Positions 29,735 through 44,856 of a stretch of DNA of 64,000 nt are shown here, one piece after another (position 1 is the stretch's first letter; each line of letters begins with the position of its first letter). This DNA is from Sphingomonas piscis (GTDB taxonomy: Bacteria > Pseudomonadota > Alphaproteobacteria > Sphingomonadales > Sphingomonadaceae): contig NZ_CP049869.1 of NCBI RefSeq assembly GCF_011300455.1, forward strand, positions 682,001-746,000, given 5' to 3'. Both the position numbers and the translations under genes were made by a program. The notes beneath the pieces are model-generated. The model ran no database searches. It saw only the letters and a list, made by a program, of their open reading frames with translations, and was not told the DNA's origin.

Positions 29735-31491
29735 GTGCTCGACCGCACGATGGACATTCAGGCAACGCTTGCACCCCCGGCGCAACTGCGACCCTCGACG
29801 ATCTTCCACGGCGGACGGCGGATTTCGGCACCCTCGCCGAGGCGCTCGACTATGCGGCTAACGGCAAGCGCGGCATGAATTTCCATGATGCCCGCGGTAC
29901 GCTGGTTCGCCCTTATCCCTATTCGCAACTTCGTTCGGACGCGCAGGATCTCTCCGGCCGCCTTGCCGCGCTGGGGATCGGAAAGGGCGACCGCGTTGCC
30001 TTGATCGCCGAGACCGGACCTGAATTCGCGGCATGCTTCTTCGCTGCCATCTATCTCGGCGCGTGGCCGGTTCCGCTGCCGCTTCCGACCAGCTTCGGCG
30101 GCCGTGAGGCCTATGTCGAGCAGTTGAAGGTGATGATGACCAGCAGCGATCCCAAGCTGCTGATCTACCCGCCGGAATTGGCCGAGTTCGCTGAGGATGC
30201 CGCAGCGCAGCTCGGCGTCGACGCCCGCGCCTGGGACAGCTTGCCGGAAGCTCCTGCCGTCGAAGCGACGCCGGGCACCGCCGACGACGTTGCCTACCTT
30301 CAATATTCCAGCGGCTCGACCCGCTTCCCGCACGGCGTTGCGGTGACTCATCGTCAATTGCTGTCCAACCTTCGCGCCCACGGCATCGGCCTTCAGGTGC
30401 AGGACGACGACCGCTGCATCTCCTGGCTACCCTGGTACCACGACATGGGCCTCGTCGGATGCATGCTCTCGCCCGTCTCTCTGCAGATTTCGGCCGACTA
30501 TCTGAAGACGGAGGACTTCGCCCGCCGTCCGCTCGCCTGGCTCGACATGATCAGCCGCAATCCGGGCAGCAGCGTCTCATATTCACCGACCTTCGGCTAC
30601 GACATCTGCTCGCGCCGCATGAGCTCGCAGACCCGCGCCGCCGATCGCTTCGACCTGTCGCGCTGGCGGATCGCCGGCAACGGTGCCGACATGATCCGCC
30701 CCGACGTGATGCAGGCTTTCGTCGACAGCTTCGCCGAAGCGGGCTTCAAGGCCGGCGCCTTCTGTCCCAGCTACGGCCTTGCCGAGGCGACGCTGGCCGT
30801 CTCCTTGATGCCGCCGGGCGAAGGCATTCGACTGGAGCTGGTGGACGAAGCCGAATTATCGGGCGTCCCTGCCGATGAGGGCAAGCCCAAGCGTTACCGC
30901 GCCATCGTCAACTGCGGCCGTGCCGTGGAAGGCATGGAGATCGAAATCCGCGGCCCGGGCGGCGACATTCTGCCCGACCGCTCGATCGGCAAGGTGTTCG
31001 TGCGCGGCACCTCCGTCATGGTCGGCTACTACCGCGACGAGGAATCCACCAAGGCTTGCCTGTCCGAGGATCGTTGGCTCGACACCGGCGATATGGGCTA
31101 CATGTCGAACGGCTACATCTTCATCGTCGGCCGCGCCAAGGACATGATCATCATCAACGGCAAGAATCATTGGCCGCAGGACATCGAATGGGCGGTGGAA
31201 CAGCTGCCCGGCTTCAAGTCCGGCGACATTGCCGCCTTCGCCATCACCGGCCCGTCCGGCGAGGAAACGCCTGCCGTTCTCGTCCACTGCCGGGTGTCCG
31301 ATCCGGAGGAACGTGGGCGTCTGCGCGACGACATCAAGGAACGCATCCGGGCCATTACCGGCATCACGCCGGTGGTCGAGTTGGTTCCGCCACGCACCCT
31401 GCCCCGCACCTCCTCGGGCAAGCTCTCGCGCACCAAAGCGCGCAACCTCTACCTAACCGGCGAAATCGTCCCCTACGACATCGCTGCGTAG
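29735..31491 (+). CDS. Fatty acyl-AMP ligase (FAAL), N-terminus probably frame-shifted
   Basis: An adenylate-forming enzyme of about 585 residues that activates fatty acids as acyl-AMP for transfer to an acyl carrier protein. Features: YLQYSSGSTRFPHGV (ATP loop), WLPWYHDMGLVGCMLSP, PSYGLAEATLAVS, LDTGDMGYMSNGYIFIVGRAKDMIIINGKNHWPQDIE (positions about 440-475) and SGKLSRTKARNLY. The good ribosome-binding site AGAGAGGAAG fits GTG at 29735, but that frame (MLDRTMDIQATLAPP) meets the main frame only if CCCCC at 29774-29778 has one more C. Otherwise the main frame starts at ATG 29689 with an atypical N-terminus. No carrier protein or PKS gene is adjacent. Confidence 0.85.
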
Positions 31492-31606
31492 CCGCGGAGC
31501 GCAGCGAAGCGATTGTGCAGCGATCGTTAGCAGCGCGACGGCAAACGCCGCCGGCGGGTCGCTTGCGAGCCCGTTTCGACGTCACGAAACTTGCCTCCGT
31601 GACGGC
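31492..31606 (+). repeat. Structured intergenic repeat, copy 1
   Basis: Fills the whole gap between the FAAL stop (31491) and the convergent membrane-protein stop (31608). It shares with copies 2-4 the head GGAGCGCAGCGAAGCGATTG, an imperfect hairpin CGATTG-N5-CGATCG, a GCCGGCGGG core, an AGCCCGTTTCGACGTCACG stretch and the tail CCGTGACGG. The terminal hairpin is degenerate here (GTCACGAAA/CCGTGAC), so this is the most decayed copy. The position between convergent stops suits bidirectional termination or mRNA end protection. Confidence 0.75.
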
Positions 31607-31607
31607 C

Positions 31608-32240
31608 TCAGGTGGATTTGCCCCACACCCGACGCGCCAGCGCAAGCGCAGCACACCCGGCCACGAACGACAGCAAGGTGATCGGCGGCATACCGCCCGG
31701 CCACTTGGCGGGTTCGATCCAATTGTGGAGACCAGTCACACCGGCGTGAAAACCAGATGCCGCCGCAATCGCCCCCAGGGCGAGGGCGCGTCCGCGATAC
31801 GTCAGGGTGCCCGACTTCCGTGCCCCGATCTCCATCCCTACCGCCGCCGCCGCGCCCGCCAGCAGCGACAGTCCCGCGGCAAAGCTCATCTTCGGCCCAA
31901 CGAAGAAACCGGGGAAATAGCCCGGCTCCAGAATCGCCAGCGACACCGCAACGTGCAGCAGCACGCCGCCTCCTGCCCATGCAAGCAACCGCCTTGGGCT
32001 CCGCCCCGCCACCATGGCCTGCACGCCCGCAAGGATCAGCAGCAGCGCCGACAGGCCCACGGCCTTGTTGACGATCAAGCTTGGCCAATCCGCCCACGGC
32101 ACGCCTTTGAAGACGTTGTAGCGAACCGTTGCATAAACGAGCGACGCGGCGGAGAGCGCGGCAACGATCCGGAGATCGCGCCGTGCTTCCCCCCTGTCCG
32201 CGGACTCCTTGACCCGCAGAAGCTCGCCGACCGCGTTCAC
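31608..32240 (-). CDS. Integral membrane protein of unknown function
   Basis: A 210-residue protein with about six hydrophobic segments (for example IVAALSAASLVYATV, AVGLSALLLILAGVQ, LLAWAGGGVLLHVAVSLAIL, FAAGLSLLAGAAAAVGM, ALALGAIAAASGFHAGV and ITLLSFVAGCAALAL). Start GTG at 32240 overlaps the stop of the upstream phoD as GTGA (32237-32240), indicating coupled translation. No family is recognised. Conserved-looking loops are EPGYFPGFFVGPKMSF and NWIEPAKWPGGMPP. It is the last gene of the TonB receptor-phoD-membrane protein run. Confidence 0.75.
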   Translation of the reverse strand: MNAVGELLRVKESADRGEARRDLRIVAALSAASLVYATVRYNVFKGVPWADWPSLIVNKAVGLSALLLILAGVQAMVAGRSPRRLLAWAGGGVLLHVAVSLAILEPGYFPGFFVGPKMSFAAGLSLLAGAAAAVGMEIGARKSGTLTYRGRALALGAIAAASGFHAGVTGLHNWIEPAKWPGGMPPITLLSFVAGCAALALARRVWGKST

Positions 32241-34220
32241 TGGCCGCCTGCCGCCGCGATGCCCCCAAGCACCTTGACCCGCTCGAGCGGCACCGGCTCG
32301 GACGTCGTCTTCGCTTCCGATGTCGAGATCGAGTGCGCGAACAAGAGGTCGCCCGAGTGGCCGTCGCGGAACTCGAAGATCACCTGCGGTTCCGGATAGG
32401 CGATCCAGCGGTCGCGGCCCGCCTTGTCCGGGATGTTGAAAGCGTTGTTGACCCGGACGATCGTATAGACCGGCCAACCCTTGCCGTTCGCCTGCGAGCT
32501 GCTGCCGCCGCTGTCGTTGCGATATTGGTTGCTCGCCCACAGCACGTTCACCTTTCGGTCGCCGCTATTGTACCAGCCGCTGGGCGGAGAGCCGCCGGCG
32601 TCGCCGATCCGGTGGTTGTTGCTGGTGTGCGGGCCGCTGGCGACATCGTAGACCCCCGGCGCGACACGCGCGACGAAGCTCTTGTGCAGGTCGCCCGTCA
32701 GGAAGATGACCGGTTTGCCGAGCGACTGCGCGAGGTTCAGCAGTTCCGCCCGCTCGTGCAAATGCGCTGTCCAGCCATCGTCCTTGGACGCACCGCCCGA
32801 CCCTTGCCCGTACCAGGCGCCATTGTCGTGCGGCACGGCAAGGTTCACCGACGATACGATGAAGATGAAGTCCGCGTCGCTGCCCTTGAGATTGTCGAAC
32901 AGCCATTTCTTCTGATCCGCACCGATCATGGTCGTCTTCGGATCGGAAAGGTTGTTCTTGTCGTGCAGGCTCCGCTCCGACCGGGCATCGAGCAGGTAGA
33001 AATCGGCGTTGGACACCCGGAACTTGGAATAAAGATTGGTGCCGATGCTGTAGCGGACCTTCTCGCTTACCGTGAATGACGGCTCGATCTGTACCCGATG
33101 CCGGTCGAGCACCTTCGCGATCCGGTACACGCCCGTGTTCCCGAAGCCCCAGAGCACGTGGAGATTGTTGGTCTTCGCCGGATCCAGCTTCGTGAAGTCC
33201 GCCGAGCGGTCCGTCAGGATATTGCTGCCGGCCTTGATGTCCGTCTGCCCGAAGTGCGGATCGCGCTGATTGCCGATGTCCGGGTTGCTCCAGCCGACGT
33301 AATCGCGCCACGCATGGAGCGCCGGGTCGCGAAAGACGGCGCGCTCCACCTCGTTGCTGACGCTGTCCGCGCGGATATTCTCCTGGAACGGCTTGCCGCG
33401 TGCATCGAGGCGGTAGCCGATTTCACCCGAGCCGGTGACGTCATTTAGGATTTCGTGATCGTCCAGCGTCACGAACAAGGGCACTTCGCGATAGAAGTTC
33501 GCGAGATTGTCGTTCTTCAGATACTCTTTGTAATTCTGCCAGACGCCGGCCACCCCGCGGGCCAGTTGCGTGACCTTGGGCTGCTTGGCCACGCCATTTT
33601 CGGCCGCCCACTGCGCCTCCGTTTTGTCGCGCCCCACTTCGTAGATCCAGTCGCCGTTCTGGATCTGGAACAGAATCTTGTCCTTCAATTCGCTCAGGAT
33701 GCGGCCGTACGTTCCCGGCACCGGGTTCTGTGACTGGTTGTTGCCGGTTCCGATTTCGAAAGCGAAATTGAAGGCGCCCTTGGGGTTCAGCGCCGGATCG
33801 CGAAAGGCCTCGCTGCTCGGGAGGGTCAGGAAGCTGTTGACCTTGCCGCCCACGCGGGTGTCCGCGTGCCGGCCGTCGACCACCAGCGCGTAATAATATT
33901 TGGTGCCTGGCTGCAGCCCTGAAGTTGCACCCAGCCGGTGGAATCATGCTCCCAACTGGTGCGGACCGGTGCGGACAGCGTTCCCCCGAAAGGTCCGGTG
34001 ATGTCGAATAATGAACGCGAAATTCGCCGGGCTGCTTGAGCCGCGCCCAAACCCTGATGGACGTCGGCGAGACGTTGCCGAGCTGTGGCCCGTTGGTGAT
34101 TGAATCAAGCTTGGCGAACTGCACCGGCGCTGAAGGTGCCTGCGCCAATGCCGGTTGAGTGAGGATGGCGGTCAGGGACAGCGCTGCCAGCAGCCGCGCG
34201 CGAGACGAGATCGTGGTCAT
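32237..34220 (-). pseudogene. PhoD-like alkaline phosphatase, reading frame broken twice
   Basis: Three leftward frames combine into one PhoD-type metallophosphatase of about 660 residues. The start (ATG 34220) has a signal MTTISSRARLLAALSLTAIL ending ALAQ. Then VSPTSIRVWARLKQPGEFRVH, a beta-rich N-terminal domain, and the catalytic part with VTLDDHEILNDV, DFIFIVSSVNLAVPHDNGAWY and PVIFLTGDLHKSFVARV, typical for PhoD metal ligands. The frame breaks are at CCCCC 33983-33987 and CCC 33917-33919; one added base at each restores SGGTLSAPVRTSWEHDSTGW and LQGLQPGTKYYYALVVDG. It follows the TonB-dependent receptor, so joint phosphorus or organic-ester uptake is plausible. Confidence 0.82.
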
Positions 34221-34245
34221 GGTTGAGGGTTCCTTGGCTGTTGCT

Positions 34246-36684
34246 CTAGAAGTGCGCGCGAAGGGTCGCGCCGAAGCTGCGCTCGTCGCCGAGATTGGCG
34301 GTGATGAGGCCGAGGTTGGAGGCGCTCAGTGCCGTGAAATATTGTTTGTCGAATAGGTTCGTGACCCAGGCCGACAAGTCGTAGCGCCCATCCCCGAACC
34401 GCAGTCCGACACGCGCATTGGCGATCCCGTAGGCGGGGATCTTCGTGTAGATGGAGTTGCTGCCGCTGGTGTCGTTGGACGAGCGGTGGTTCCAGTCGAC
34501 GCGGCCGTAAACCTCGTCACCAACGCCGAAGAGCTGGACGGGCTGAGTCACATCCGCGCCGACGTAGTAAATGAACTTCGGCGCGTTCGCGAGCTGGACG
34601 CCCGACAGGTCCTGCACCTGGCTGACGTTGCGGTTCTCCGGCGCAACCTGGGCGTTTCTATAGTCCCGGTAGACCGCGTCATTGTAGGCGGCGGAGGCCG
34701 TCAGCCGCACCCAGCGGCTCGGCGCCACCGTCAGATCCGCTTCCACGCCGCGCGAGCGCACGCCGGGAATGTTGGAAATGTAGCGGATCGACGAGCTTGT
34801 GGTGCCGATCTGCTCCGTAACGCCTGCCTGGTAATCCTTGACCTTAGTCAAATAGGCGGCGGCGTTGAGCGTGATGCGCCGGTCCCAGAACTGGCTTTTC
34901 ACGCCCAGTTCCCAGGCGTCGACCTTTTCGGGATCGACCACCGGCGAAATTCCGGCCGGCAGATCGCCGAGGCTGAGGCCCCCCGACTTGCTGCCGCGCG
35001 AATAGGTCGCGTACGTCAGCACATCCGGCGCAACCTTGTAGGACAGCGTCACCTGTCCGGTCAGCGCATTGTCCTTGAGACCGGTGGTGTAGCGCTTCTC
35101 CGGGTAGATGGCGTTGCGCAGGTTCTGCGCCGTCACCCGCTGCGCCGGAGTCAGTAGAGACAGGTCGTTGCCCGCCGCCGTATATTGGTCGAACAGCCCG
35201 GTCTTCTTCTCATGGGTGAAGCGAAGCCCGCCCGTCACGCTTAGCCGGTCGCTGGCGTGCCAGGTCGCCTGCCCGAATGCCGCATAGCTGTGGGTGATCG
35301 GCTCGATCACCGACAGCGACAGGAAACCGTTCAGCGCGTAGTTTGCGATGGTCTGGTTGGCGTTTGGGTTGTTCCACAAAGCCGAGGCAGGCCCCTGCTG
35401 GTAGTGCCCGAGCCCGTTGACGTTCTGCCAGAAGTAATAAAGCCCGCCGACGTAATCGATCTTCCCGTCGCCCTTCGACGCGGCCCGGAATTCCTGGCTG
35501 AACTGCCGCTGATGATTGTCGGTACCGCTGTGCAGCGTCAGCTCGAGCGGCGTATTGTCCGTGTCATTGTCCGGATACCAGTCCCAGCCGCGCCAGGCGG
35601 TGATGGATGTCAGCACGACCGGTCCGACATCCCAGTCGGCTTTCCCCGAGACGCCGTAGCCCTTCATGTTCGCCTGAACCGGGCCGTTGACGTCCACCAC
35701 CCGGGCGAACGGGTCGGTGATATCGAAGCGCGGCTCGTACCCCCCGCGGCGTGCCCGATCGAGCCAGTTGTTGGTGAGCGGTGCGCCGTTCGCGTAGCGG
35801 GTGAACAGGCCGACGATGCTGGTCGTGCGCGAATAGCTGGTCTGCCGCGAATAATCGCCGATCAGCCTGACGTTGATGTCCGGCGTCGGGGTCAGAAGCA
35901 GCTGGCCGCGGAGGTTGAAGTTGGTGAAATCGTTGATTTCACGCCCATCGAACAGGTTTCGCAAGCTGCCGTCGCGATGGGTGTGCGACAGCGTCACCCG
36001 ATAAGCAGCGAGGTCCTCGGCAATCGGCCCGGTCAGCGATCCGCGAAGCTGATGGTAGCCGTCGTCGCCGATCGTCGCCTCGCCGGTGAAGCCATGTCTG
36101 AATTCCGGCGCACGCGTGGTGATGCTGATTGCACCGGCCGTGGTGTTCTTGCCGAACAATGTTCCCTGCGGCCCACGCAGCACCTCGACCCGCTCCAGGT
36201 CGATTAGGTCGAACTGGGACGCGCCGATCCGCCCGTAATAGACATCGTCGACATAGAAGCCGACGCCGATCTCCAGCCCGTCGTTCTGGTCGGAGTTCGA
36301 CCCCAACCCGCGGATGTTGGCGAAGGTGTTGCGGGCATTGTTGTTGCGGATGACGAGAGAGGGCGTCAGCTGCGCGATTTGCGTCAGGTTGGTTGCGCCG
36401 ATCCGGTCCAGCGTCTCGCCGCTGACCGCCGTCAGTGCGATCGGCACGTCCTGCGCGCGCTCCTTGCGGCGCCGCGCGGTGACGACGATTTCCGGGTCGT
36501 TCTGCGTGGAAGCGGCGGCGGCGGTTCCGGCGCCGGCAGCGACGGCGGCACTAGCCTCGCCAGCGGTCTCGTTGGCGGGTTGTGTCGCATCCGTCTGCGC
36601 AGCGGCAGGGGCGGAAAGAGCGATGGCCGAAGCGCCTGCAAACAGCAGGTGGCGGGCAGCCGGAAGAGATTGGAAATGAAGCAA
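34246..36684 (-). CDS. TonB-dependent receptor
   Basis: An 812-residue outer-membrane receptor with signal peptide (HLLFAGASAIALSAPAAAQ), a TonB-box-like DPEIVVTARRRKERAQDVPIA region, plug domain (IAQLTPSLVIRNNNARNTFANIRGLGSNS, positions about 100-128; EVLRGPQGTLFGKNTTAGAISI) and a long barrel ending YFTALSASNLGLITANLGDERSFGATLRAHF-type strands with a terminal Phe. The start is TTG at 36684 with GAAGGA seven bases upstream; a GTG ten codons earlier lacks a good site. The ligand is unknown. Downstream genes are phoD and a membrane protein; upstream is yezD. Confidence 0.9.
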   Translation of the reverse strand: MLHFQSLPAARHLLFAGASAIALSAPAAAQTDATQPANETAGEASAAVAAGAGTAAAASTQNDPEIVVTARRRKERAQDVPIALTAVSGETLDRIGATNLTQIAQLTPSLVIRNNNARNTFANIRGLGSNSDQNDGLEIGVGFYVDDVYYGRIGASQFDLIDLERVEVLRGPQGTLFGKNTTAGAISITTRAPEFRHGFTGEATIGDDGYHQLRGSLTGPIAEDLAAYRVTLSHTHRDGSLRNLFDGREINDFTNFNLRGQLLLTPTPDINVRLIGDYSRQTSYSRTTSIVGLFTRYANGAPLTNNWLDRARRGGYEPRFDITDPFARVVDVNGPVQANMKGYGVSGKADWDVGPVVLTSITAWRGWDWYPDNDTDNTPLELTLHSGTDNHQRQFSQEFRAASKGDGKIDYVGGLYYFWQNVNGLGHYQQGPASALWNNPNANQTIANYALNGFLSLSVIEPITHSYAAFGQATWHASDRLSVTGGLRFTHEKKTGLFDQYTAAGNDLSLLTPAQRVTAQNLRNAIYPEKRYTTGLKDNALTGQVTLSYKVAPDVLTYATYSRGSKSGGLSLGDLPAGISPVVDPEKVDAWELGVKSQFWDRRITLNAAAYLTKVKDYQAGVTEQIGTTSSSIRYISNIPGVRSRGVEADLTVAPSRWVRLTASAAYNDAVYRDYRNAQVAPENRNVSQVQDLSGVQLANAPKFIYYVGADVTQPVQLFGVGDEVYGRVDWNHRSSNDTSGSNSIYTKIPAYGIANARVGLRFGDGRYDLSAWVTNLFDKQYFTALSASNLGLITANLGDERSFGATLRAHF

Positions 36685-37108
36685 GGTCGGTCCTTCACGT
36701 GGATGGCGGCGCACGGCCGCGCACCGTCCGCCGGCGCTGGCGGCGCGGTTCTGAACAAGGCTCGGGCGTCGTCAGGCCGCGCGGCGTGCGAGGTCTGGAA
36801 GGGCGCTGGGCGCCGCAACGTCCGTGGGGAATGGCTTAGGGAAGCGCCTCAGGGGCGCTCAGCGGATCAGTCGGTACACGTCATCGTATCGCCCCATCGT
36901 CTTGGGGGAACACGATCCCTGGCGTTGTCGCCTTGGAACCGTGCGCTTTAGCCGTTAGTGACGCGGAGCAAGCTGCATCCCGATCAAAAGCCGCGGGTTT
37001 GAACACCGGCGACCGGCCGGCGACGCAGCAACCACCTGCGTCTTCTGTAATCCCTAGCTACTTACTAGGGTAATTGCCGTCAACCGCTAAATTGCGCGAT
37101 GCCAGCCG
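36685..37108 (-). other. Gene-free region upstream of the TonB-dependent receptor
   Basis: About 420 bases without a credible gene. The part nearest the receptor is very GC-rich and could be an untranslated leader; I do not recognise a riboswitch in it. At its right end is the CCCTAG/CTAGGG inverted repeat annotated separately (37047-37070). Confidence 0.5.
37047..37070. promoter_or_regulatory. CCCTAG-N7-CTAGGG inverted repeat, candidate operator or promoter element
   Basis: GTAATCCCTAG at 37047-37057 and CTAGGG at 37065-37070 form an inverted repeat with a 7-base spacer. In the receptor's orientation it reads CAATTACCCTAGTAAGTAG. A similar string, GCAATCCCTAGTTGATGAG, occurs in the same orientation upstream of yezD (37343-37361). 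The sharing suggests a common regulator. The distance to the receptor start (about 360 bases) implies a long leader if this is its promoter. Confidence 0.4.
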
Positions 37109-37279
37109 TCATGCGAGGCGCGTCTTTTCGGTGACGTCGAACTGCACCACCCGGCCGTTGTGGATGGTAATGGCGATCGACCCGTAGCGGATTCGCTCCA
37201 GATGATGGCGGAGCTCCTCGACGATGTCCGGCTCGCGTGAGCCCGGCCCGCTTCGCGCCTGTTCTTCATGTCCGATCAT
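37109..37279 (-). CDS. YezD family small protein (DUF2292)
   Basis: A 56-residue protein from ATG 37279. The pattern EELRHHLERIRYGSIAITIH-NGRVVQFDVTEKTRLA is the DUF2292/YezD signature (short helix, then two strands around the NGRVVQ turn). In other bacteria yezD is frequently near sulfur-assimilation or sulfur-starvation genes. Here it lies between msrB (divergent) and the TonB-dependent receptor (same strand). The biochemical function of YezD is unknown. The match covers the full length, so I am confident in the gene despite its size. Confidence 0.8.
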   Translation of the reverse strand: MIGHEEQARSGPGSREPDIVEELRHHLERIRYGSIAITIHNGRVVQFDVTEKTRLA

Positions 37280-37339
37280 TGGCCCCTCGATCCTGGCGCG
37301 CCGGGAATCGCGCGCCGCCGCCTCCTACCGACGCTTACT

Positions 37340-37361
37340 CTACTCATCAACTAGGGATTGC
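37340..37361 (-). promoter_or_regulatory. Second CCCTAG element, between yezD and msrB
   Basis: In leftward orientation GCAATCCCTAGTTGATGAG, followed by TAGAGTAAG; it matches the element at 37047-37070 (GCAAT..CCCTAGT....AGTAG in common). It is about 60-80 bases upstream of the yezD ATG and about 45 bases upstream of the divergent msrB ATG, a suitable position for a regulator of either gene. Confidence 0.4.
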
Positions 37362-37403
37362 ATTCAGCCGTGCGAAAGCCGCTGGGGCCTAGCCTCCGGC
37401 GCC

Positions 37404-37895
37404 ATGAGGATTGAACCGCTTTCCAGACGAGGCTTCGTGGTCGCTGGCGCAAGCTCCGCCTTCGCGCTCGCTGCCTGCGGCAACGCCGCACCCGCCGCCG
37501 GCCGCCGGTTTGAGGTCAACCTCACTGCGGCCGAGTGGCGCAAGCGCCTGGGCCCGCAACGCTACCACGTCCTGCGCGAAGCCGGCACCGAATTCCCGAA
37601 CACCAGCCCGCTGAACAAGGAGCATCGCCGCGGTACCTTTGCATGCGCCGGCTGCGGCCTCCCGCTGTTCGCCTCCGCCACCAAGTTCGACAGCGGCACC
37701 GGCTGGCCCAGCTTCTTCCGCCCGCTCCCCAAAGCCGTCGTTACTCGCGCCGACCGAAGCTTGCTGATGGAGCGCACCGAAGTGCTCTGCCGTCGCTGCG
37801 GCGGCCATCTCGGTCACCTGTTCGAGGACGGACCCAGGCCGACCGGCCTTCGCTACTGCATGAATGGGCTGGCGTTGAAGTTCGAGCCAGCCTGA
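37404..37895 (+). CDS. msrB: Tat-exported lipoprotein methionine sulfoxide reductase B
   Basis: A 163-residue MsrB that reduces methionine-R-sulfoxide. The N-terminus MRIEPLSRRGFVVAGASSAF with twin arginines (Arg8-Arg9) fits a Tat signal, followed by a lipobox ALAAC (Cys25). The enzyme would then be a membrane-anchored periplasmic form. Zinc cysteines are Cys81/Cys84 and Cys129/Cys132 (CAGC and CRRC). The catalytic Cys152 is in RYCMNGLALKF, replacing the usual RYCINSASLRF but keeping the cysteine. KFDSGTGWPSFF is standard. Repair of oxidised envelope proteins is the likely job. Confidence 0.92.
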   Translation: MRIEPLSRRGFVVAGASSAFALAACGNAAPAAGRRFEVNLTAAEWRKRLGPQRYHVLREAGTEFPNTSPLNKEHRRGTFACAGCGLPLFASATKFDSGTGWPSFFRPLPKAVVTRADRSLLMERTEVLCRRCGGHLGHLFEDGPRPTGLRYCMNGLALKFEPA

Positions 37896-37971
37896 AGCGA
37901 GCCCTTGCCTGCGCTTGCCGTTCAGCGGCCTTGCGCTCAGCCGGTGCGGACGGTAGGTCGCACGCCGGCCT

Positions 37972-38047
37972 AGGGGTATAGCTCAGTTGGTAGAGCATCG
38001 GTCTCCAAAACCGAGGGTCGTGGGTTCGAGTCCCTCTGCCCCTGCCA
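37972..38047 (+). tRNA. tRNA-Trp (anticodon CCA)
   Basis: A 76-nt cloverleaf. The acceptor stem pairs AGGGGTA with TGCCCCT, followed by discriminator G and an encoded CCA. The D arm is GCTC-AGTTGGTA-GAGC. The anticodon arm is CGGTC-TCCAAAA-CCG with anticodon CCA at 38005-38007, and the T arm holds GTGGGTTCGAGTCC. It sits just upstream of secE-nusG, the usual bacterial arrangement. Confidence 0.97.
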
Positions 38048-38162
38048 GTCAATCCGCCATATGCTTGAACGTGCGCACAACCCGCGCTACATCATGCGTC
38101 TATCGAGGTCCCGGCCAGCGCCGCGGACCTCGTTTTTCTATCACTTTGAGGTGAGCAAGACA

Positions 38163-38363
38163 GTGGCCAAGGTCTCTCCCGGCGAATTCATGCGGCAGGT
38201 CCGGCTCGAAGCCATCAACCGCGTGTCCTGGCCGAGCGCGGGCGAAACCCGCACCACCGCGATCATGGTCGTCATTATGACCACCTTGCTCGCCCTCTTC
38301 TTTTTCGCGGTCGACGGCACCTTCGGATTTCTCGTCCGCCAGGTCCTCGGTCTTCTAGGTTAA
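38163..38363 (+). CDS. secE: Preprotein translocase subunit SecE
   Basis: A 66-residue single-span SecE. The amphipathic N-terminus AKVSPGEFMRQVRLEAINRVSWPS is followed by one transmembrane segment (AIMVVIMTTLLALFFFAVDG). SecE clamps SecY in the translocon. I chose GTG at 38163, with GAGGTGAG eight to fifteen bases upstream, because it gives the family start VAKVSPGEF. A GTG at 38151 is an alternative. Followed nine bases later by nusG. Confidence 0.92.
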   Translation: MAKVSPGEFMRQVRLEAINRVSWPSAGETRTTAIMVVIMTTLLALFFFAVDGTFGFLVRQVLGLLG

Positions 38364-38372
38364 GGTTTTCCC

Positions 38373-38912
38373 ATGTCCCGCTGGTACATCATCCACGCTT
38401 ATTCGGGCTTCGAGAACAAGGTCCGCGAATCGATCCAGAGCGAGGCCAGGCGCCTCGGCCTTGAGCGCGCCGTCGAGGCGATCGAGGTCCCGACCGAGAC
38501 GATCACCGAGGTGAAGCGCGGCAAGAAGGTGCAGTCCGAACGCAAGTTCATGCCGGGCTACGTGCTCGCCAAGCTGGAGATGAACGACCAGGTCTACCAC
38601 CTCGTCAAGAACACGCCCAAGGTCACCGGCTTTCTCGGGCCCGGCGGCAAGCCGCAGCCGATCCCGGACGCCCAGGCCGCGCGCATGCTCGACCAGAAGG
38701 AAGAAGCCGCCGCCAACGCGCCCAAGCAGAAGATCAACGTCGATTATGAGATCGGCGACGCGGTCAAGGTGCTGGACGGCCCCTTCGCGACCTTCAACGG
38801 TACGGTGGAAGAGCTCGACTTCGACCGTTCGCGGGTCAAAGTCAGCGTCTCGATCTTCGGCCGTGCTACCCCCGTCGAATTGGAATTCGAACAGGTCGAG
38901 CGCGTTAAGTAG
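38373..38912 (+). CDS. nusG: Transcription termination/antitermination factor NusG
   Basis: A 179-residue NusG. The N-terminal NGN domain starts RWYIIHAYSGFENKVRE and includes RKFMPGYVLAKLEMND and TPKVTGFLGPG. The KOW domain at about residues 125-179 reads YEIGDAVKVLDGPFATFNGTVEELD followed by SVSIFGRATPVELEFEQVE. NusG binds RNA polymerase and couples it to Rho or the ribosome. rplK normally follows directly; here it is 5.5 kb away, beyond an accessory block. Confidence 0.97.
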   Translation: MSRWYIIHAYSGFENKVRESIQSEARRLGLERAVEAIEVPTETITEVKRGKKVQSERKFMPGYVLAKLEMNDQVYHLVKNTPKVTGFLGPGGKPQPIPDAQAARMLDQKEEAAANAPKQKINVDYEIGDAVKVLDGPFATFNGTVEELDFDRSRVKVSVSIFGRATPVELEFEQVERVK

Positions 38913-39045
38913 CCGCGAGCGCAGCGCCGCCGGCGCGAAACGCGTCGCCGAAGCAGCGTAGTAGACGGCTGCAGCGCCCGGCCGGCGGGGCGGTCAGTCC
39001 AACTGACCCAGCCCGTCCGACGTCACGGGATTCACTCCCGTGACG
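38913..39045 (+). repeat. Structured intergenic repeat, copy 2
   Basis: Begins right after the nusG stop. It shares GCGAGCGCAGCG at its head and GCCGGCGGGGCGGTCAG in the middle with the other copies. Hairpin 2 is GGTCAGT-CCA-ACTGACC (38992-39008). Hairpin 3 is CGTCACGGGA-TTCAC-TCCCGTGACG (39021-39045), a perfect 10-bp stem. The hairpin 1 region is diverged (CGGCG...CGCCG). Confidence 0.85.
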
Positions 39046-39074
39046 GACTCACTTTCTTCCCGTAAGACGCGGCC

Positions 39075-39260
39075 ATGGCCACCGGCGAAAAGTTCGAACG
39101 TCACCGCCAGCCTTGGCGCCAGGACGAAATCCAGAAGCTCCATCAGCTCGCCGCCAAAGGCATGAGCCTCAAGGCCATCGCAAAAGCGCTGACCCGAAGC
39201 GAGGAAAGCACCAAGGACCGCGCCAAGGCTGACGGGCTGAAGATCGCCAAGGTACGATAA
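39075..39260 (+). CDS. Small putative helix-turn-helix protein
   Basis: A 61-residue basic protein (MATGEKFERHRQPWRQDEIQ at the start). The middle EIQKLHQLAAKGMSLKAIAKALTRSEESTKDRAK (positions 18-51) looks like a helix-turn-helix or SANT-like unit of the kind found in small Sphingomonad proteins. It begins 30 bases after repeat copy 2 with no strong ribosome-binding site. It may bind DNA, but no family is certain. Confidence 0.6.
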   Translation: MATGEKFERHRQPWRQDEIQKLHQLAAKGMSLKAIAKALTRSEESTKDRAKADGLKIAKVR

Positions 39261-39351
39261 GGCGGGGTAAGCCCGATCGGGTCTTGCCGCAGTAGCTGGC
39301 CCGTGGATCCTATGGTACCGCGCCCTGGGGTTCGCGAGGGGAGACGGAAAA

Positions 39352-40692
39352 TTGGCGAGAAGCCGCCTCGCTCTGGGTGTTGCCGGAGGCCTGGTCGTCG
39401 GCTTCCTTGCGCTTTTCGCCGTCGTCGGCATGACGATGTGGCTTGGCGAACGGTCCAACGCGCTCTTCCGGGATGCGGCCTTGCAGCGGGACGCGCGGGT
39501 CGCCGCGGTTGAACTCCGCGATGCGCTGAGAACGGCCGAGTCCAGCCAACGCGGCTATCTTCTGACCGGCAATGAGATCTATCTCGCGCCCTACGACACG
39601 GCCAAGGTTCGCGCCCAGCAGCAGCTGTCGGATTTCCAGCGGCGCGTAGCGACGGCGTCCCAGGCACCGCCGTACCTGCCAAGCCTGCGCACGGCGGTCA
39701 CCGACAAGCTGGAGGAGATGGACCGGAGCGTCGGGCTGAAGCGCGCCGGTTCCGACGCGGATGCCCTGTCGATCCTCCGCAGCAACCGCGGCAAGGCCTT
39801 GATGGATGAGATCAACGTCTACCTCTACGGCGCAATGCTGGACGCCGACGAGAAAACGACCCTGTTCGAGGGAGAGCAGCATGACAATGCCGCCATGCTG
39901 CGCTGGGTGTCCATCGCCGCCGCGCTGGTGATCACGCTGGTCGTCGCCGCGGTGGCGTTCACCGTCCATCGCAACCGGCAGGACATCACCCAGGCGCGCG
40001 ACGAGGTGCGGGCCATCAACCGGACGCTGGAAGACCGGGTCGAACAGCGAACGCGTGAGCTGGCGCTTGCCCGCGAACGGGCGGAGCTCCTGCTGACGGA
40101 GGTCAATCATCGCGTCGCCAACAGCCTGCAGCTCATCTCGGCCCTGGTCAGCATGCAATCCAAGACGGTCACCGACGAAGCGGCCAAGGGCGCGCTGAAG
40201 GAAACGGAGTCGCGGATCCAGGCGATCTCCCAGATCCACAAGAGCCTCTACACCTCGGGCGACGTGACCTCGGTCGCCTTGAACGAATATCTGGCCGTCA
40301 TGCTGCAGAACCTTGGCGCCGCCATGCACAACGACGGCCACACGGCGCGCCTGACGAGTGAGCTCGATCCCGTGAGCCTGCCTACCGACCAGAGCATCAG
40401 CCTCGGCGTTATCGCCACGGAGTTGGTGACGAACGCCTTCAAATATGCCTATCCGGAAGGGCATCCGGGCGACATCCGCGTGAGGTTGCGCAAGCTCGAC
40501 GACGGACAGGCCGAGCTCGTGGTTCAGGACGACGGCGTCGGGCTGGGCAGCACCGGCCATCTGGGCGGAACGGGCCTGGGATCGAAGATCGTCGCCGCCA
40601 TGGCCGCCGGCCTGAAGACCAGGGTCGAATATGTCGCCCGCACGCCGGGGACCGCCGCCCGCCTGACATTCTCCACCGCACAGCCGGCATGA
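39352..40692 (+). CDS. CHASE3 sensor histidine kinase, HisKA_2 (HWE-like) type
   Basis: A 446-residue membrane sensor kinase. It has TM1 at residues about 7-30, a CHASE3-like periplasmic helical domain (RDALRTAESSQRGYLLTGNE, about residues 56-75), TM2 at about 185-206, a coiled linker and a HisKA_2 domain with His253 in LLTEVNHRVANSLQLI. The ATPase domain has Asn361 in ELVTNAFKYAYP and DDGVGL at 393-398. The start is TTG at 39352 with GGGGAGACGG upstream. It overlaps the next gene by 4 bases (ATGA). No response regulator is adjacent. HisKA_2 kinases often feed the general stress response in Alphaproteobacteria. Confidence 0.9.
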   Translation: MARSRLALGVAGGLVVGFLALFAVVGMTMWLGERSNALFRDAALQRDARVAAVELRDALRTAESSQRGYLLTGNEIYLAPYDTAKVRAQQQLSDFQRRVATASQAPPYLPSLRTAVTDKLEEMDRSVGLKRAGSDADALSILRSNRGKALMDEINVYLYGAMLDADEKTTLFEGEQHDNAAMLRWVSIAAALVITLVVAAVAFTVHRNRQDITQARDEVRAINRTLEDRVEQRTRELALARERAELLLTEVNHRVANSLQLISALVSMQSKTVTDEAAKGALKETESRIQAISQIHKSLYTSGDVTSVALNEYLAVMLQNLGAAMHNDGHTARLTSELDPVSLPTDQSISLGVIATELVTNAFKYAYPEGHPGDIRVRLRKLDDGQAELVVQDDGVGLGSTGHLGGTGLGSKIVAAMAAGLKTRVEYVARTPGTAARLTFSTAQPA

Positions 40693-41855
40693 CACGCGCC
40701 CCTTCATCGGCTGCACAATGGCGCGTGTTCACGAGGCTTCACATGCGCGTCGCCGCGCTCGCGCTGCTGGCCGTCGCACCGCCGTCCGCCGCGCGCGAGC
40801 CCGGCAACGGCATCACCCGACCTGTCGTCCTTCCTCCGTTCGATCCCGCCGCCCGCGCCTGCACCAGGCCCCGCGGCCTTCGGAACGAGCTCGTCTTCGT
40901 CCAGGATAATGAGCGCGAATTCGTGCAGGGCATCGCGCGCGGCCTGGCGGTCGCCGCTTCGGACCGGGGGCTCGCCTATCGCGTGGTCCGCTCGAACAAC
41001 AACGCCGCCCTGATGATCCGGCAGGTGAACGGCCTCAACGCCCAAAAGGCCGGCGCGATCGTCGTCGCGCCGATCGACCCGCCCTCGCTGAGCCCGAGCC
41101 TCCGGCGCGCCATCCGGGGCGGCGCTTATGTCGGGGCGATCGTGCCGCCGCCGGCAACCACCATCCTGAACGCGCCGCAATATCAGACCGGCAAGGTGCT
41201 TGCGGAGGCGGCCGCCGCGCACATTCGCACCCGGCTGGGCGGCAAGGCCAAGGTAGTCCTGCTGACCCACGACAATCTGCAATTCCTAGCGCCGCGCTTC
41301 ACCGCGATGCGGGATACGCTGCGGCGGCTGCCCGGCGTCACCATCGTCGCCGACATCTCCCCCGTCACCGTCGATCGCGCCGGCGGTCACCGCACCATGA
41401 AGATGATCCTTCTGGCCCATCCCAGGGTCGACGTGGTCCTCGGCGCCGACACGGTGGTGCTGGGCGCGCTCGACGCGCTGCGGCAGGCGCGCAAGGCTCG
41501 GCCGGACCAGTTCCTCGGCGGCATCGACGGAGAACGTGCGGCCGTCGCCGAACTGAAGAAGGCGGGCAGCCCCTACAAGGCCAGCATCAGCCTCGCCTCT
41601 CCCATCTTCGGCTACGCCATGGGCCGGTTCGCGTCCGACTGGCTGAGCGGGAAGTCGGTCCCCCAGGCCATGGACATCCTGCCCAAGGCCCTCACCATCG
41701 CCAACATCGCGCAGTACGAGCGCGACGTCGCCGACCCCAGGGCCGTCTATGCCGACCCCCGGCGCCGATATTCCTACCTCCGGATGTACGGCAACATCTG
41801 CTCCGACACGCGGGATCGGTATCTGAACTTCCCCTGGTCGTCGGAAAGGAAGTGA
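40689..41855 (+). CDS. Periplasmic sugar-binding-like protein paired with the kinase
   Basis: A 388-residue protein of the type I periplasmic binding fold (RbsB-like). The signal MRVAALALLAVAPPSAARE is at residue 19; the ATG at 40689 adds 18 residues and is coupled to the kinase stop, while the ATG at 40743 would give a standard signal peptide. Domain segments are LVFVQDNEREFVQGIARGLAVAASDRGL, KAGAIVVAPIDPPSLSPSLRRA, VVLLTHDNLQFLAPRFTAMRDTL and DVVLGADTVVLGALDAL. No ABC permease or ATPase genes are adjacent, so it more likely presents a ligand to the kinase than feeds a transporter. Confidence 0.82.
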   Translation: MTRAPSSAAQWRVFTRLHMRVAALALLAVAPPSAAREPGNGITRPVVLPPFDPAARACTRPRGLRNELVFVQDNEREFVQGIARGLAVAASDRGLAYRVVRSNNNAALMIRQVNGLNAQKAGAIVVAPIDPPSLSPSLRRAIRGGAYVGAIVPPPATTILNAPQYQTGKVLAEAAAAHIRTRLGGKAKVVLLTHDNLQFLAPRFTAMRDTLRRLPGVTIVADISPVTVDRAGGHRTMKMILLAHPRVDVVLGADTVVLGALDALRQARKARPDQFLGGIDGERAAVAELKKAGSPYKASISLASPIFGYAMGRFASDWLSGKSVPQAMDILPKALTIANIAQYERDVADPRAVYADPRRRYSYLRMYGNICSDTRDRYLNFPWSSERK

Positions 41856-41983
41856 CACCGAGCGCAGCGAAGCGATTGCGCAGCAATCGTTAGCAGCGCG
41901 AAGAGTTGTCACGCGCCGGCCGGCGGGGCGCGTAGCCTAAAGCGTAGCGAACCCGTTCCACGTCACGGATTCACTCCGTGACG
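41856..41983 (+). repeat. Structured intergenic repeat, copy 3
   Basis: Begins at the stop of the binding-protein gene. Hairpin 1 is CGATTGC-GCA-GCAATCG (41873-41889). The middle has GCCGGCCGGCGGGGCG. Hairpin 3 is CGTCACGGA-TTCAC-TCCGTGACG (41961-41983), a 9-bp stem. An outer pairing GTGACA (41853-41858) with TGTCAC (41907-41912) is also possible. The copy lacks the clear hairpin 2 seen in copies 2 and 4. Confidence 0.85.
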
Positions 41984-42022
41984 GCTTCTTCCCTGATCTC
42001 GTCAGTCTGTCGATCCCATGGA

Positions 42023-43713
42023 TCACAACAAACTCCCCTGCTTCCGCCCGCTCTCATCCTCCCGCTTCGCTCGCTTCACGCTTGCGGGATCAACAAACGG
42101 GATATCCGGCTTCTTGCCCTGGAACAGCTCGGCCAGCGTGATGATCTGCAACTTCGGATAAGTTCGCCCCCACTCATCCGTGAAACGCCCCACAGCCGCC
42201 GCTTCCGTCTCCATCGGCCGCGTCGGGTTCACGGCGGTGATGAACACCCCAATGGGCGCTTTCTCCCGCTCCATGGCGCTGTGCAGGTCGCGGATCATGT
42301 TGACCGAGACATTGTTGCCGCCCTTTACCGACACCAGCGCCTTTTCGGTCCTTTTGCCGTCGGGCTTGAAGTAGATGATGCCGTCGATCCCGCCGTCGGC
42401 ACCCTTCTTCTTGCCGCCGAACGGCAGCGCATCGACCATCGACACCGCCCACCACTGAAACTGATATTTGTCGCGGATGGCGAGGTCCTGCGCCGAGGCG
42501 AGATCCTTGGGCGTGCCGTGCACTTCGAAAGCGATACCAGGAAAGGCGTCCTTGAGGCGCTTCTCTATCAAACTGATGGCGAGGTGGGTCACGTCAATGC
42601 CGATCCACTGGCGCCCGAGCTTTTGCGCCGCGTGGACGGCGGTCCCGCAACCGCAGAAAGGGTCGAGAATGACATCGCCTTCCTTGACGATGCAGCAATG
42701 ATGCGCTCCAGAAGCGCTACCGGCTTCTGTGTGGGATATCCCAAACGTTCGTGCCCGGCTGATGGCCCAATGTCGCTCCACTCGTTCTGCAGGGGAACAC
42801 CGGGCATCTCATCTAAGTAGCGCTTGAATCTTGGAACTCCGGTCCCTGAGTATCCGATCCGCCCCTCTTCGGCCATTCGACGCATATTCTCTAAAGAGTA
42901 TGCCCAGATACGACCCTTGTAGGGCTTCGATCCAACATATTCCCAACCATCCTTCGGGGTCAGATGCTCCGAAGTTAAATCGTGCTGCCAATCACCGCCC
43001 GCCGGCCGCTTGGCACGCCATTCATAAAGTGTGTCTCCGCCGGGTTTCGCCGCTGTAAGGTTATCCAGCTGAAAACGGCGACCGGTTTCGGGATCAACGT
43101 TCTTATACGATGTTTCAATGTACGATTGGCTATATGGAGTGAAGATCCAGTTCCAGGTGTATTGGGATGTCTTCGTGTAGAAGAATATCACGTCCCGAAT
43201 GTTGCCGTACTGAGTTCTGCCTTGTTTCGCATCACTGTGGGCGGTCGTGCGTCTCCAGCTAATTTCTGACCGGTAGTTCTCAGATCTGAATACAGCATCC
43301 AATAGCAACTTTAAATAATGCGACGCCGTCGGATCGCAGTGAAGGTACAAGCTCCCGGTCGGCTTCAGCACCCGATGCAACTCGATCAGCCGCACCGCCA
43401 TCATGGCGAGATACGCCATCATGTCATTCTCGCCGAGGAACGTGCGCATGGCGCGCAGCAGCTCGGCGGCATCGGTATTACCGCTGCGGATCACCTGGTC
43501 GAAGGCGTCCTCCGCCTTGTCGTTCCAGTGCCAGGTGTCCTCGAACGCCTCGATCTGCGCGTCCGAGCCGTCGCCGGTCTTCGACTTGAACAGTATGTTG
43601 TAGTTGGCGTTCGAATTGAACGGCGGGTCGAGGTAGATGAGATCGACGCTCTCGCTTGCGATATGCTCGCGCAGTACGTCGAGATTGTCCCCGTAAAAAA
43701 GCTTGTTCGTCAC
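42023..43713 (-). pseudogene. DNA methyltransferase with C-terminal nuclease-like domain, reading frame broken once
   Basis: One enzyme of about 560 residues from two leftward frames. The GTG at 43713 (GGGGAAG upstream) starts VTNKLFYGDNLDVLREH. Then LIYLDPPFNSNANYNILF (motif IV), a long variable target-recognition region and DPFCGCGTAVHAAQKLGRQWIGID (motif I), the class beta order. Beyond it, GKKKGADGGIDGIIYF and KALVSVKGG suggest a PD-(D/E)XK nuclease of the Mrr type. The break is at TT 42684-42685; one added base gives AASSKEGDVILDPFCG. The middle third is AT-rich (43081-43320 about 45% GC by hand count) in a GC-rich chromosome. A one-protein restriction-modification system is the likely role. 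Confidence 0.8.
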
Positions 43714-43744
43714 GCACTTCCCCGCCCCGAGTGCCTCAACCGTA

Positions 43745-43885
43745 GCAAGCCCGTCACGGGAGTAAATCCCGTGACGTCGGACGGGATCGGTCAGCTTGCC
43801 TGACCGCCCCGCCGGCCGGCACTGCATGGCTCTACGCGCTGCTTCCCGGTTGCTTTCGCAACCGCTCAGCTGCGCTCGGCATTTC
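43745..43885 (-). repeat. Structured intergenic repeat, copy 4 (inverted)
   Basis: Upstream of the methyltransferase start, in leftward orientation. Hairpin 1 is CGGTTGC-GAAA-GCAACCG (43847-43864), hairpin 2 is GGTCAG-N5-CTGACC (43789-43805) and hairpin 3 is CGTCACGGGA-N5-TCCCGTGACG (43752-43776). GCCGGCCGGCGGGGCGGTCAG links them. Compared with copy 3, hairpin 1 has an A-T to G-C exchange and a GAAA loop. Confidence 0.85.
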
Positions 43886-43942
43886 GTGCTGTCCTACACC
43901 CCTCCCCGCGTGCCACACTCCACCCGCACAGGAGGAACCCGC

Positions 43943-44083
43943 ATGCCCACCAGCTTTCTCGGCCTGTTCCTGGTCTCGACCGCGCTCTCCCTTGCCGCCA
44001 CCTTCACGGTGCTCGGTCTCAGGAAGCTCGTCCGCACGGCCTATCCGCCGCGCCGCAGACCGATCGAACTGCCTCGGGCCTGA
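43943..44083 (+). CDS. 46-residue single-span membrane protein
   Basis: Starts at ATG 43943 after an excellent ribosome-binding site (GGAGGAACCCGC). MPTSFLGLFLVSTALSLAAT followed by FTVLGLRKLVRTAYPPRRRP gives one transmembrane segment with a basic cytoplasmic tail. No family is recognised. It lies just inside repeat copy 4 and about 340 bases before rplK. Confidence 0.65.
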   Translation: MPTSFLGLFLVSTALSLAATFTVLGLRKLVRTAYPPRRRPIELPRA

Positions 44084-44194
44084 CGATCGGAAAGCGACAC
44101 CATCAAACCCCGCCAGAACGTCAACCGTGTAAACTTCCCCTTAGCAAAAGTCCTACAGCCACCTCTTTCAGGGCCGCAGATGCGGCGAAGTTGA

Positions 44195-44265
44195 CGAAGG
44201 TCACATTTCAGCCCTCCTCCGCTCCCGCGGCAAACCCGCGCAGACCGCCGAATGCGTGACCTTCG
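44195..44265. promoter_or_regulatory. 10-bp inverted repeat upstream of rplK
   Basis: CGAAGGTCAC at 44195-44204 and GTGACCTTCG at 44256-44265 are perfect complements, extended by ATT/AAT across a 2-base bulge. The 51-base interior is CT- and GC-rich. It may be an RNA stem in a long leader or a pair of operator half-sites. Confidence 0.4.
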
Positions 44266-44386
44266 CCGCTCCCTTCACTTTTGCCGCCATTTGCTGTAGT
44301 GGCGCCCGCATCCAGGACATCGTCATGGGAATCGCTGTGGGAGGCTGAGCTTCGGCTTGGCCGCTTGAACCACTAAACTTCAAACC

Positions 44387-44409
44387 GGGGCAAAGTACCA
44401 CTTTGGCCC
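44387..44409 (+). promoter_or_regulatory. rplK leader palindrome shared with rplJ
   Basis: GGGG-CAAAGT-ACC-ACTTTG-GCCC, ending 16 bases before the rplK ATG. The same core CAAAGTACCACTTTGGCC precedes rplJ at 50027-50045. Pairing is 6 bp plus 3 bp around one mismatch here, against a perfect 9 bp at rplJ. It could be a protein-binding RNA hairpin near the ribosome-binding site or a DNA operator. Confidence 0.55.
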
Positions 44410-44424
44410 GAACTCGAGAGTGAT

Positions 44425-44856
44425 ATGGCAAAGAAAATCACCGGCTACATCAAGCTGCAGGTGCCTGCGGGCGCCGCCAATCCGTCGCCGCCGATCGGCC
44501 CTGCTTTGGGTCAGCGCGGCGTCAACATCATGGAATTCTGCAAGGCGTTCAACGCCGCGACCGGCGACCAGGAAAAAGGCATGCCGATCCCGACGGTGAT
44601 CACCGTCTATGCGGACCGCTCCTTCTCCTTCGCGACCAAGACTCCGCCGGCCTCCTTCCTTTTGAAGAAGGCCGCGAACCTCAAGTCGGGCTCCAAGGAG
44701 CCGGGCAAGGTGTCGGCGGGCACGATCAAGCGGTCCAAGCTGGCCGAGATCGCCGAAACCAAGATGAAGGACCTCAACGCGAACGACATTGAGGCCGCGA
44801 CCAAGATCATCGAAGGCTCCGCTCGCGCGATGGGCCTCCAGGTTGTGGAGGGCTAA
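44425..44856 (+). CDS. rplK: Ribosomal protein L11
   Basis: A 143-residue L11 of the large subunit, which binds the GTPase-associated region of 23S rRNA. Family signature [21 protein letters not shown] is at residues about 10-30, then [15 protein letters not shown] and the C-terminal RNA-binding [25 protein letters not shown] stretch. Four bases separate its stop from the start of rplA. Leader elements upstream suggest autoregulation. Confidence 0.98.

Follow-up and report, generated by a model that had tools for sequence, protein, structure and literature searches.

The genome of Sphingomonas piscis contains a dispersed family of repeats that resemble repetitive extragenic palindromic (REP) sequences but have an unusual stem, P1, which often seems to capture the stop codon of the gene in front. 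Four copies of 115-145 nucleotides (nt) lie in the window analyzed in this study, that is, the whole stretch of 64,000 nucleotides at bases 682001-746000 of the single-contig genome (2,718,035 bp). Covariation shows that the single-stranded element folds into three parts: a head composed of P1 and P2/P3, the core hairpin P4, and P6 as the terminal hairpin. Either the end of the upstream gene (its last codons, its stop codon, or both) or the sequence directly behind the stop is included in P1; statistics and double changes at nusG both show this. The first-pass annotation, made from the sequence alone, had described four copies with a common head, core, and terminal hairpin; each lies where it was placed, and all four carry these parts, whereas the reach of P1 into coding sequence was absent from that annotation. 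The family has so far been seen in Sphingomonadaceae and is apparently undescribed. Its best reading, tentative as it is, is that of a REP-like, stop-proximal structure acting in mRNA.

Pairing with gene ends and folded architecture

The placement of the element was analyzed in a set of 192 copies (220 rows minus the 20 weakest, with duplicates merged), 186 of which have an upstream gene call; genes were called by our own codon-bias script rather than by a published gene finder. In 150 of these 186 copies the upstream neighbor is a same-strand gene whose end faces the element. The element starts 0-18 nt behind a same-strand gene end in 110 of the 192 copies, behind a coding sequence (CDS) in 95 cases and behind a tRNA gene in 15; among random intergenic points, 352 of 9500 (3.7%, counted for CDS ends only) are equally near a CDS end. 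A same-strand tRNA gene is the upstream neighbor of 17 copies, 16 of them within 24 nt. On the loci fetched with a covariance model, 12 of 23 copies are within 0-18 nt of a gene end. The commonest distances from stop codon to element are 4-5 and 10-11 nt.

These two distances are consistent with one fixed geometry, in which the 5' arm of P1 is formed either by the last codon or codons and the stop, or by the bases just behind the stop. Pairing was tested in the 85 of 95 CDS-adjacent copies with a recognized core start, five of which, at 7-8 nt, fall in neither distance class. For motifs starting 0-6 nt behind the stop (n=38), the inner arm of the element is paired with the final coding bases (z 4.7, 0 of 2000 shuffles). 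For those starting at 9-18 nt (n=42), pairing shifts to the bases behind the stop (z 4.9, 0 of 2000) and is not seen for the coding bases (z 1.0). When each host-gene family is represented by a single copy, the corresponding values are 4.2 (n=25, 0 of 2000), 3.7 (n=27, 2 of 2000), and 0.8 for the coding bases of the more distant class. For instance, GTGACA pairs with TGTCAC around the TGA codon in copy 3 of the window, TCGCCTGA with TCAGGCGA in locus L123, and AGCGCTAA with TTAGCGCT in L111.

The nusG genes of three species provide the double changes. Their P1 arms are AGTGACC/GGTCACT (G209), AGTAGCG/CGCTACT (G021), and AATAGCG/CGCTATT (G022): the stop and the last lysine codon vary, and the inner arm varies to match, with four double changes. 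Thus the pairing appears to be kept up in place. Separately, inspection by eye of L112, L139, L159, and L169 showed long hairpins built from the last codons and the sequence directly downstream, which hold the stop codon at the loop or close to it; L159 and L169 are rpoA ends.

From 5' to 3', the element consists of P1, a purine-rich internal loop (CCGAG ... GAAGAG), P2, the triloop hairpin P3, the motif GCCGGCC with hairpin P4, and the terminal hairpin P6. In a 12-copy alignment, 92.5% of the cells in the five helices are paired, compared with 79.3% after shuffling, and two-sided changes occur in 21 of 33 pairs (shuffled mean 10.5). None of 500 shuffles reached the observed values on any of five measures, and pairing falls to 27-41% in slid versions of the structure. 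As the structure was derived with RNAalifold from the same alignment, the test leans somewhat in its favor. A larger alignment comprises 127 of 138 listed sequences and two window copies. P6 occurs in two loop classes, TTYAC and GCCGC, whose stem letters are unrelated; loci L073-L192 were retrieved by an exact P6 pattern, so their uniformity in P6 proves nothing, and P6 diversity was therefore read from the model-fetched loci.

The copies of the window, with the parts of copy 3 (read from sequence and fold), are as follows.

31489..31608, plus strand: copy 1, stop codon (31489-31491) and element; terminal hairpin degraded; 87 bits
38910..39049, plus strand: copy 2, nusG stop codon (38910-38912) and element; 97 bits
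41852..41987, plus strand: copy 3, element including the stop TGA (41853-41855) of a periplasmic-binding-protein gene; 126 bits
41852..41857, plus strand: copy 3, 5' arm GTGACA of outer stem P1, holding the stop codon and pairing with 41907-41912 in the fold
41907..41912, plus strand: copy 3, 3' arm TGTCAC of outer stem P1
41873..41889, plus strand: copy 3, hairpin P3, CGATTGC-GCA-GCAATCG, with a C(GNA)G triloop; covaries across copies
41914..41957, plus strand: copy 3, core hairpin P4 (GGCCGGCGGGG ... CCCGTT); fold and covariation
41961..41983, plus strand: copy 3, terminal hairpin P6, CGTCACGGA-TTCAC-TCCGTGACG, without a T-tract behind; covariation
43748..43890, minus strand: copy 4, upstream of a DNA methylase gene on the same strand; 126.5 bits

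Three copies had been annotated as beginning directly at a stop codon, and copies 1-3 indeed start at the stops of open reading frames (ORFs) ending at 31491, 38912, and 41855; copy 4, as the annotation implied, is the sole copy of the window that has no same-strand stop close to its start. Copy 1 spans the whole gap up to a convergent ORF ending at 31608, as annotated, but this ORF has no Pfam match, so its status as a gene is uncertain. A 42-nt head is common to copies 1 and 3 (95% identity), and the inverted pair of copies 2 and 4 is 90% complementary across 72 nt. Copies 2, 3, and 4 fold 3.7, 2.8, and 5.9 standard deviations better than their shuffled versions and copy 1 only 1.1; copy 1 is the most degraded of the four.

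Host genes and the fate of the transcript

Among 120 upstream CDS, named by one representative per recurrent family, the recurrent hosts are rpoA (10 copies), sspB (7), and lepA, rpsI, and the acyl-AMP ligase gene of copy 1 (4 each), followed by nusG, rpsA, and a reductase group with fabI (3 each). Hosts seen twice include groEL, rplL, rpoD, dnaB, clpP, nrdB, the urocanase gene (L097/L165), and a membrane pyrophosphatase gene; 56 hosts are singletons. In nine of the ten rpoA loci the element is situated between rpoA and the gene of ribosomal protein L17 (rplQ), identified by Pfam in one locus and by eye in eight; the tenth locus shows no downstream gene. An ordinary terminator is found downstream of the element in two of two groEL, two of two rplL, two of three rpsA, and two of four rpsI loci. 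Because of the rpoA-L17 placing and the copies ahead of canonical terminators, transcription is expected to pass the element at these loci.

These data bear on the possibility that the element is a non-canonical terminator, built of several hairpins and lacking a U-tract, that stands in for the usual hairpin-plus-T terminator. U-less "I-shaped" intrinsic terminators exist, and the element shares with intrinsic terminators a GC-rich hairpin behind a stop codon. In favor of this role, a canonical terminator within 300 nt is less frequent at element ends (18 of 108) than at other ends (85 of 292, p=0.014; shuffled 23 of 292). Likewise, nusG has a canonical terminator at this place in 10 of 25 genomes without the element and in one of five with it, and one of the five nusG elements has a T-rich tail. 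However, at least five T in 8 nt occur in only 11 of 156 element tails (of the 192 copies), versus 85 of 2000 random positions, and the element is multi-domain and has conserved loops. The rpoA and rplQ genes form one operon in many bacteria, so that copies in the gap between them argue against termination there, although a promoter may lie in the 84-201 nt that precede rplQ. Since copies occur in this gap and some stand ahead of ordinary terminators, the element is not simply a terminator; termination as the sole function was set aside, and we consider this explanation unlikely.

In the reading we prefer, the element would act in cis within mRNA. After the last ribosome leaves, P1 would close over the stop codon, so that no unpaired stretch would be offered behind the gene to RNases or Rho, and P4 and P6 would resist 3'-to-5' decay. 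Behind tRNA genes, the same protection could be given to the trailer. Whole hairpins could be copied or exchanged between copies, which would both create and homogenize them in the absence of a REP-type transposase from the source genome.

Alternatively, the structure could be a stop-proximal translation brake stalling the terminating ribosome, as reported for E. coli REPs within 15 nt of the stop (PMC12306157), whose distance range matches the one found here. In agreement with this, the stop codon is often within P1. On the other hand, copies are also located behind tRNA genes and behind rpoA, groEL, and rplL, which are expected to be strongly expressed. A brake is, in our opinion, very improbable.

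Distribution, kinship, and possible mobility of the copies

The first-pass annotation had allowed that the likeness of the copies might reflect local duplication only and had proposed a covariance search. BLAST with copy 3 found 11 places in the genome, including copy 3 itself. The covariance model R1, built from 12 copies of this genome, gave 18 genome matches at E<=0.01, of which 16 exceed 60 bits; the 12 are among the 18 by construction. Beyond them, matches above 60 bits are at 93952-94080, 1589606-1589742, 511241-511375, and 1797523-1797659. Local duplication and chance are thus ruled out as the source of the similarity by copies spread genome-wide and across the family. Of the 17 copies listed for the source genome, 12 are preceded by a CDS stop or tRNA end at a distance of 3-13 nt from the motif, and the copy at 1589606 has a candidate ORF upstream as a thirteenth case.

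Some copies of the source genome are arranged in groups. Locus L018 (genome 1825399-1827727) contains three copies within 2.3 kb, each 5 nt behind a TGA codon; the copy at 1826403 has a head like that of one neighbor and a core like that of the other, and a TIR-domain gene is next to this group. Tail-to-tail pairs are found at 93802-94080 and 1797523-1797759; the latter pair overlaps, and each of its members is 4-5 nt behind an ORF stop.

All 37 genomes of the genus searched with R1, the source genome included, have between 1 and 19 matches, three of them only a single weak match (E 1.5e-5 to 0.0015); among 24 genomes from other families of the order none was found. The 3'-half model R2 found the element in 29 of 149 family genomes (21 of 89 genera), missing one genus member positive with R1, and across the class in two of 289 sampled genomes, the source genome and another of its family. 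The genome scans used strict filters, under which weak copies are lost. In the species collection, the exact P6 pattern occurs in at least 120 stretches. The names among the matches listed are mostly Sphingomonas, Sphingobium, Novosphingobium, Croceicoccus, Sphingosinicella, Sphingomicrobium, Sphingopyxis, and Sphingomonadales, and a few are given only as "Alphaproteobacteria" or "Proteobacteria bacterium". One element (L147) is on a record titled Arthrobacter sp. TPD3018, a label that may be wrong, and three contigs of a viral collection (L193-L195) carry full elements on either true phage or host DNA.

For 25 of 84 copies, the nearest element in another locus is at the same host gene (2.1 expected by shuffling), though at least four of these 25 cases are duplicates (an identical sequence under two locus identifiers; two contigs from a single metagenome-assembled genome). 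The rpoA copies show clear inheritance (nine of ten), the tRNA-Trp copies none (0 of 7). Among the nusG elements, G021 and G022 are mutually nearest, with a similar head and core start and different P6 and P4 interior, and G209 is nearest to G021. A copy is present at nusG in five of 30 genus genomes and at the acyl-AMP ligase gene in five of 30, one of them reduced, and in both cases its presence is scattered on a tree of NusG and the acyl-AMP ligase from 25 genomes. Because G022 is far from G021 and G209, whose neighbors lack a nusG copy, loss, regain, or transfer must be common.

Likeness within genomes was computed on 170 copies. The nearest neighbor is in the same genome for 24 of 117 core and terminal parts (2.6 expected) and for 14 of 117 heads (2.7 expected), and the similarity of heads does not correlate with that of cores (r -0.10), as if modules had been exchanged. 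It is possible, if doubtful, that the element is a distinct structured mRNA 3' module that captures the stop and last codons in a co-adapting helix and couples translation termination to closure of the 3' structure, its hairpins spreading and swapping between genes as modules.

Several observations weigh against a role in mRNA. The two distance classes of the pairing test were chosen after the distances had been seen, and four of the 17 own copies (copy 4 and those at 93952, 511241, and 123903, the last at 41 nt) are not at a stop. The recurrence of core genes among the hosts is partly expected, because only conserved genes can recur. As 59 of 84 copies are nearest to a relative at another gene, most sites are not strongly conserved. 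Triloops prevail in P3 (107 of 168) and P4 (88 of 149), and in perfect element hairpins GNA accounts for 55 of 119 triloops, versus 27 of 638 elsewhere, with an intermediate share (15 of 105) in other hairpins behind stops without a T-tract. Element tetraloops are of the RNA type GNRA or UNCG in only 10 of 54 cases; the 18 perfect terminator hairpins in the same loci have no triloop, and nine of their 12 tetraloops are GNRA or UNCG. Finally, an RNA should have more G-U than A-C mismatches, and this bias is only weak here (32:21, background 158:174).

C(GNA)G is an exceptionally stable mini-hairpin in DNA. With loops of this DNA-favored type, a serious rival is a mobile but non-autonomous repeat that, in the manner of REPs or the ends of the insertion sequences IS200/IS605, moves as single-stranded DNA, with an enzyme outside PF01797 that recognizes hairpins of the sense strand and gene-end targeting partly by pairing of the inner arm with the target. 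The within-genome likeness and the patchy, tree-scattered presence at nusG and the acyl-AMP ligase gene fit such an element, as do unrelated copies at the same site: of the seven behind tRNA-Trp, none is nearest to another. In contrast, the double changes imply that pairing at nusG has been maintained on site, no pair of filled and empty sites was recovered, and no terminal inverted repeat or target duplication was noticed, though without a systematic search. The evidence pulls apart, with stop-codon pairing and placement at gene 3' ends pointing to mRNA and the triloops to DNA; we regard movement as single-stranded DNA as possible but rather improbable. The mobility that the annotation had allowed for is supported only indirectly, by the greater-than-chance likeness within genomes and by the patchy sites.

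PF01797, the family searched for as REP transposase, is absent from the source genome and from 39 of 41 genus genomes, whereas five of 14 control genomes were positive; movement of the repeat by a REP-associated tyrosine transposase (RAYT) was therefore rejected. In agreement with the annotation, no transposase was seen nearby among ten proteins scanned between 29.7 and 44.9 kb of the window, which are not all genes of this region.

The nusG and rplK genes adjoin in many bacteria. Here they are 5.5 kb apart (window 38912-44425), with histidine kinase, periplasmic-binding-protein, and methylase genes in between. A foreign insert flanked by copies 2-4 was suspected and then abandoned, because varied sequence comes after nusG in relatives without a copy there. 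The methylase region (window 42026-43713, minus strand) encodes N6_N4_Mtase DNA methylase and Mrr-type endonuclease domains in separate reading frames, on two ORFs that overlap (42592-43713 and 42026-42781), in a frameshift-like arrangement. Elsewhere in the window, two 180-nt direct repeats, 76% identical and starting 222 nt apart, are located at 24541-24942.

Comparison with described repeats and implications

Among described repeats, the CGTC REPs of alphaproteobacteria come closest, as judged from their description. PMC3733652 lists these palindromes for S. wittichii, S. chlorophenolicum, and N. aromaticivorans, and places those of S. wittichii mostly within 20 bp of gene 3' ends, with no dedicated transposase. 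It describes REPs as single hairpins of 20-40 bp, the CGTC ones mostly as head-to-head dimers, with an unpaired CGTC tag, AT at stem positions 1-2, a stem of 8-9 bp, loops of 4-5 nt, and mostly a CCA tail. Similar features of the present family are the closeness to gene 3' ends, the loops of 4-5 nt (TTYAC or GCCGC), and the CGTC at the start of the commoner P6 class. However, this CGTC is not an unpaired terminal tag but pairs with GACG in P6, and it is absent from the GCCGC-loop class. The stem does not begin with AT (AC follows CGTC, and the second loop class has unrelated stems), the tail is mostly GGCC or GGCT rather than CCA (156 of 192 copies read), and the window copies are 115-145 nt long with several hairpins, one stem of which takes in the stop codon. 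Of two CGTC-type patterns of our own writing, one had no match in the window and the other none in the source genome; a remote relationship to the CGTC REPs is possible.

GTAG REPs, REP doublets forming hairpins (REPINs), and bacterial interspersed mosaic elements (BIMEs) are likewise dispersed, directional, and close to stop codons, and the ends of GTAG REPs often supply a TAG stop (PMC3733652). In the alignments of the present family there is no conserved GTAG at the foot of the hairpin, and the source genome has no RAYT-family gene. The annotation as REP/BIME-like thus holds broadly, for dispersed, palindromic, directional elements just behind genes, while most of the tested defining features of both described REP superfamilies were not found.

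Among RNA candidates, HRC-28-1 also has a multi-stem structure and a suggested place in the 3' untranslated region (UTR) of the upstream gene, as judged from its description. It is mostly from Polynucleobacter and ends in an apparent intrinsic terminator (PMC8632094). The Rfam search proposed in the first-pass annotation gave no match in the window at the gathering score, and none for the elements of L001, L018, L122, and L152 even at E<=5. Inspection of the ends by eye, without a scan, revealed no integron attC core sites (RYYYAAC / GTTRRRY). No published description of this family in Sphingomonadales was found in a literature search that had subscription journals and supplements outside its range.

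Repeats at the ends of genes are commonly regarded as selfish palindromes. In the present family, base pairing enters coding sequence and at nusG tracks changes of the stop codon, so that the question of an mRNA role for such repeats becomes directly testable. Species differ in whether a given gene carries the element, and each of the 37 genus genomes searched has matches, so that natural comparisons are available.

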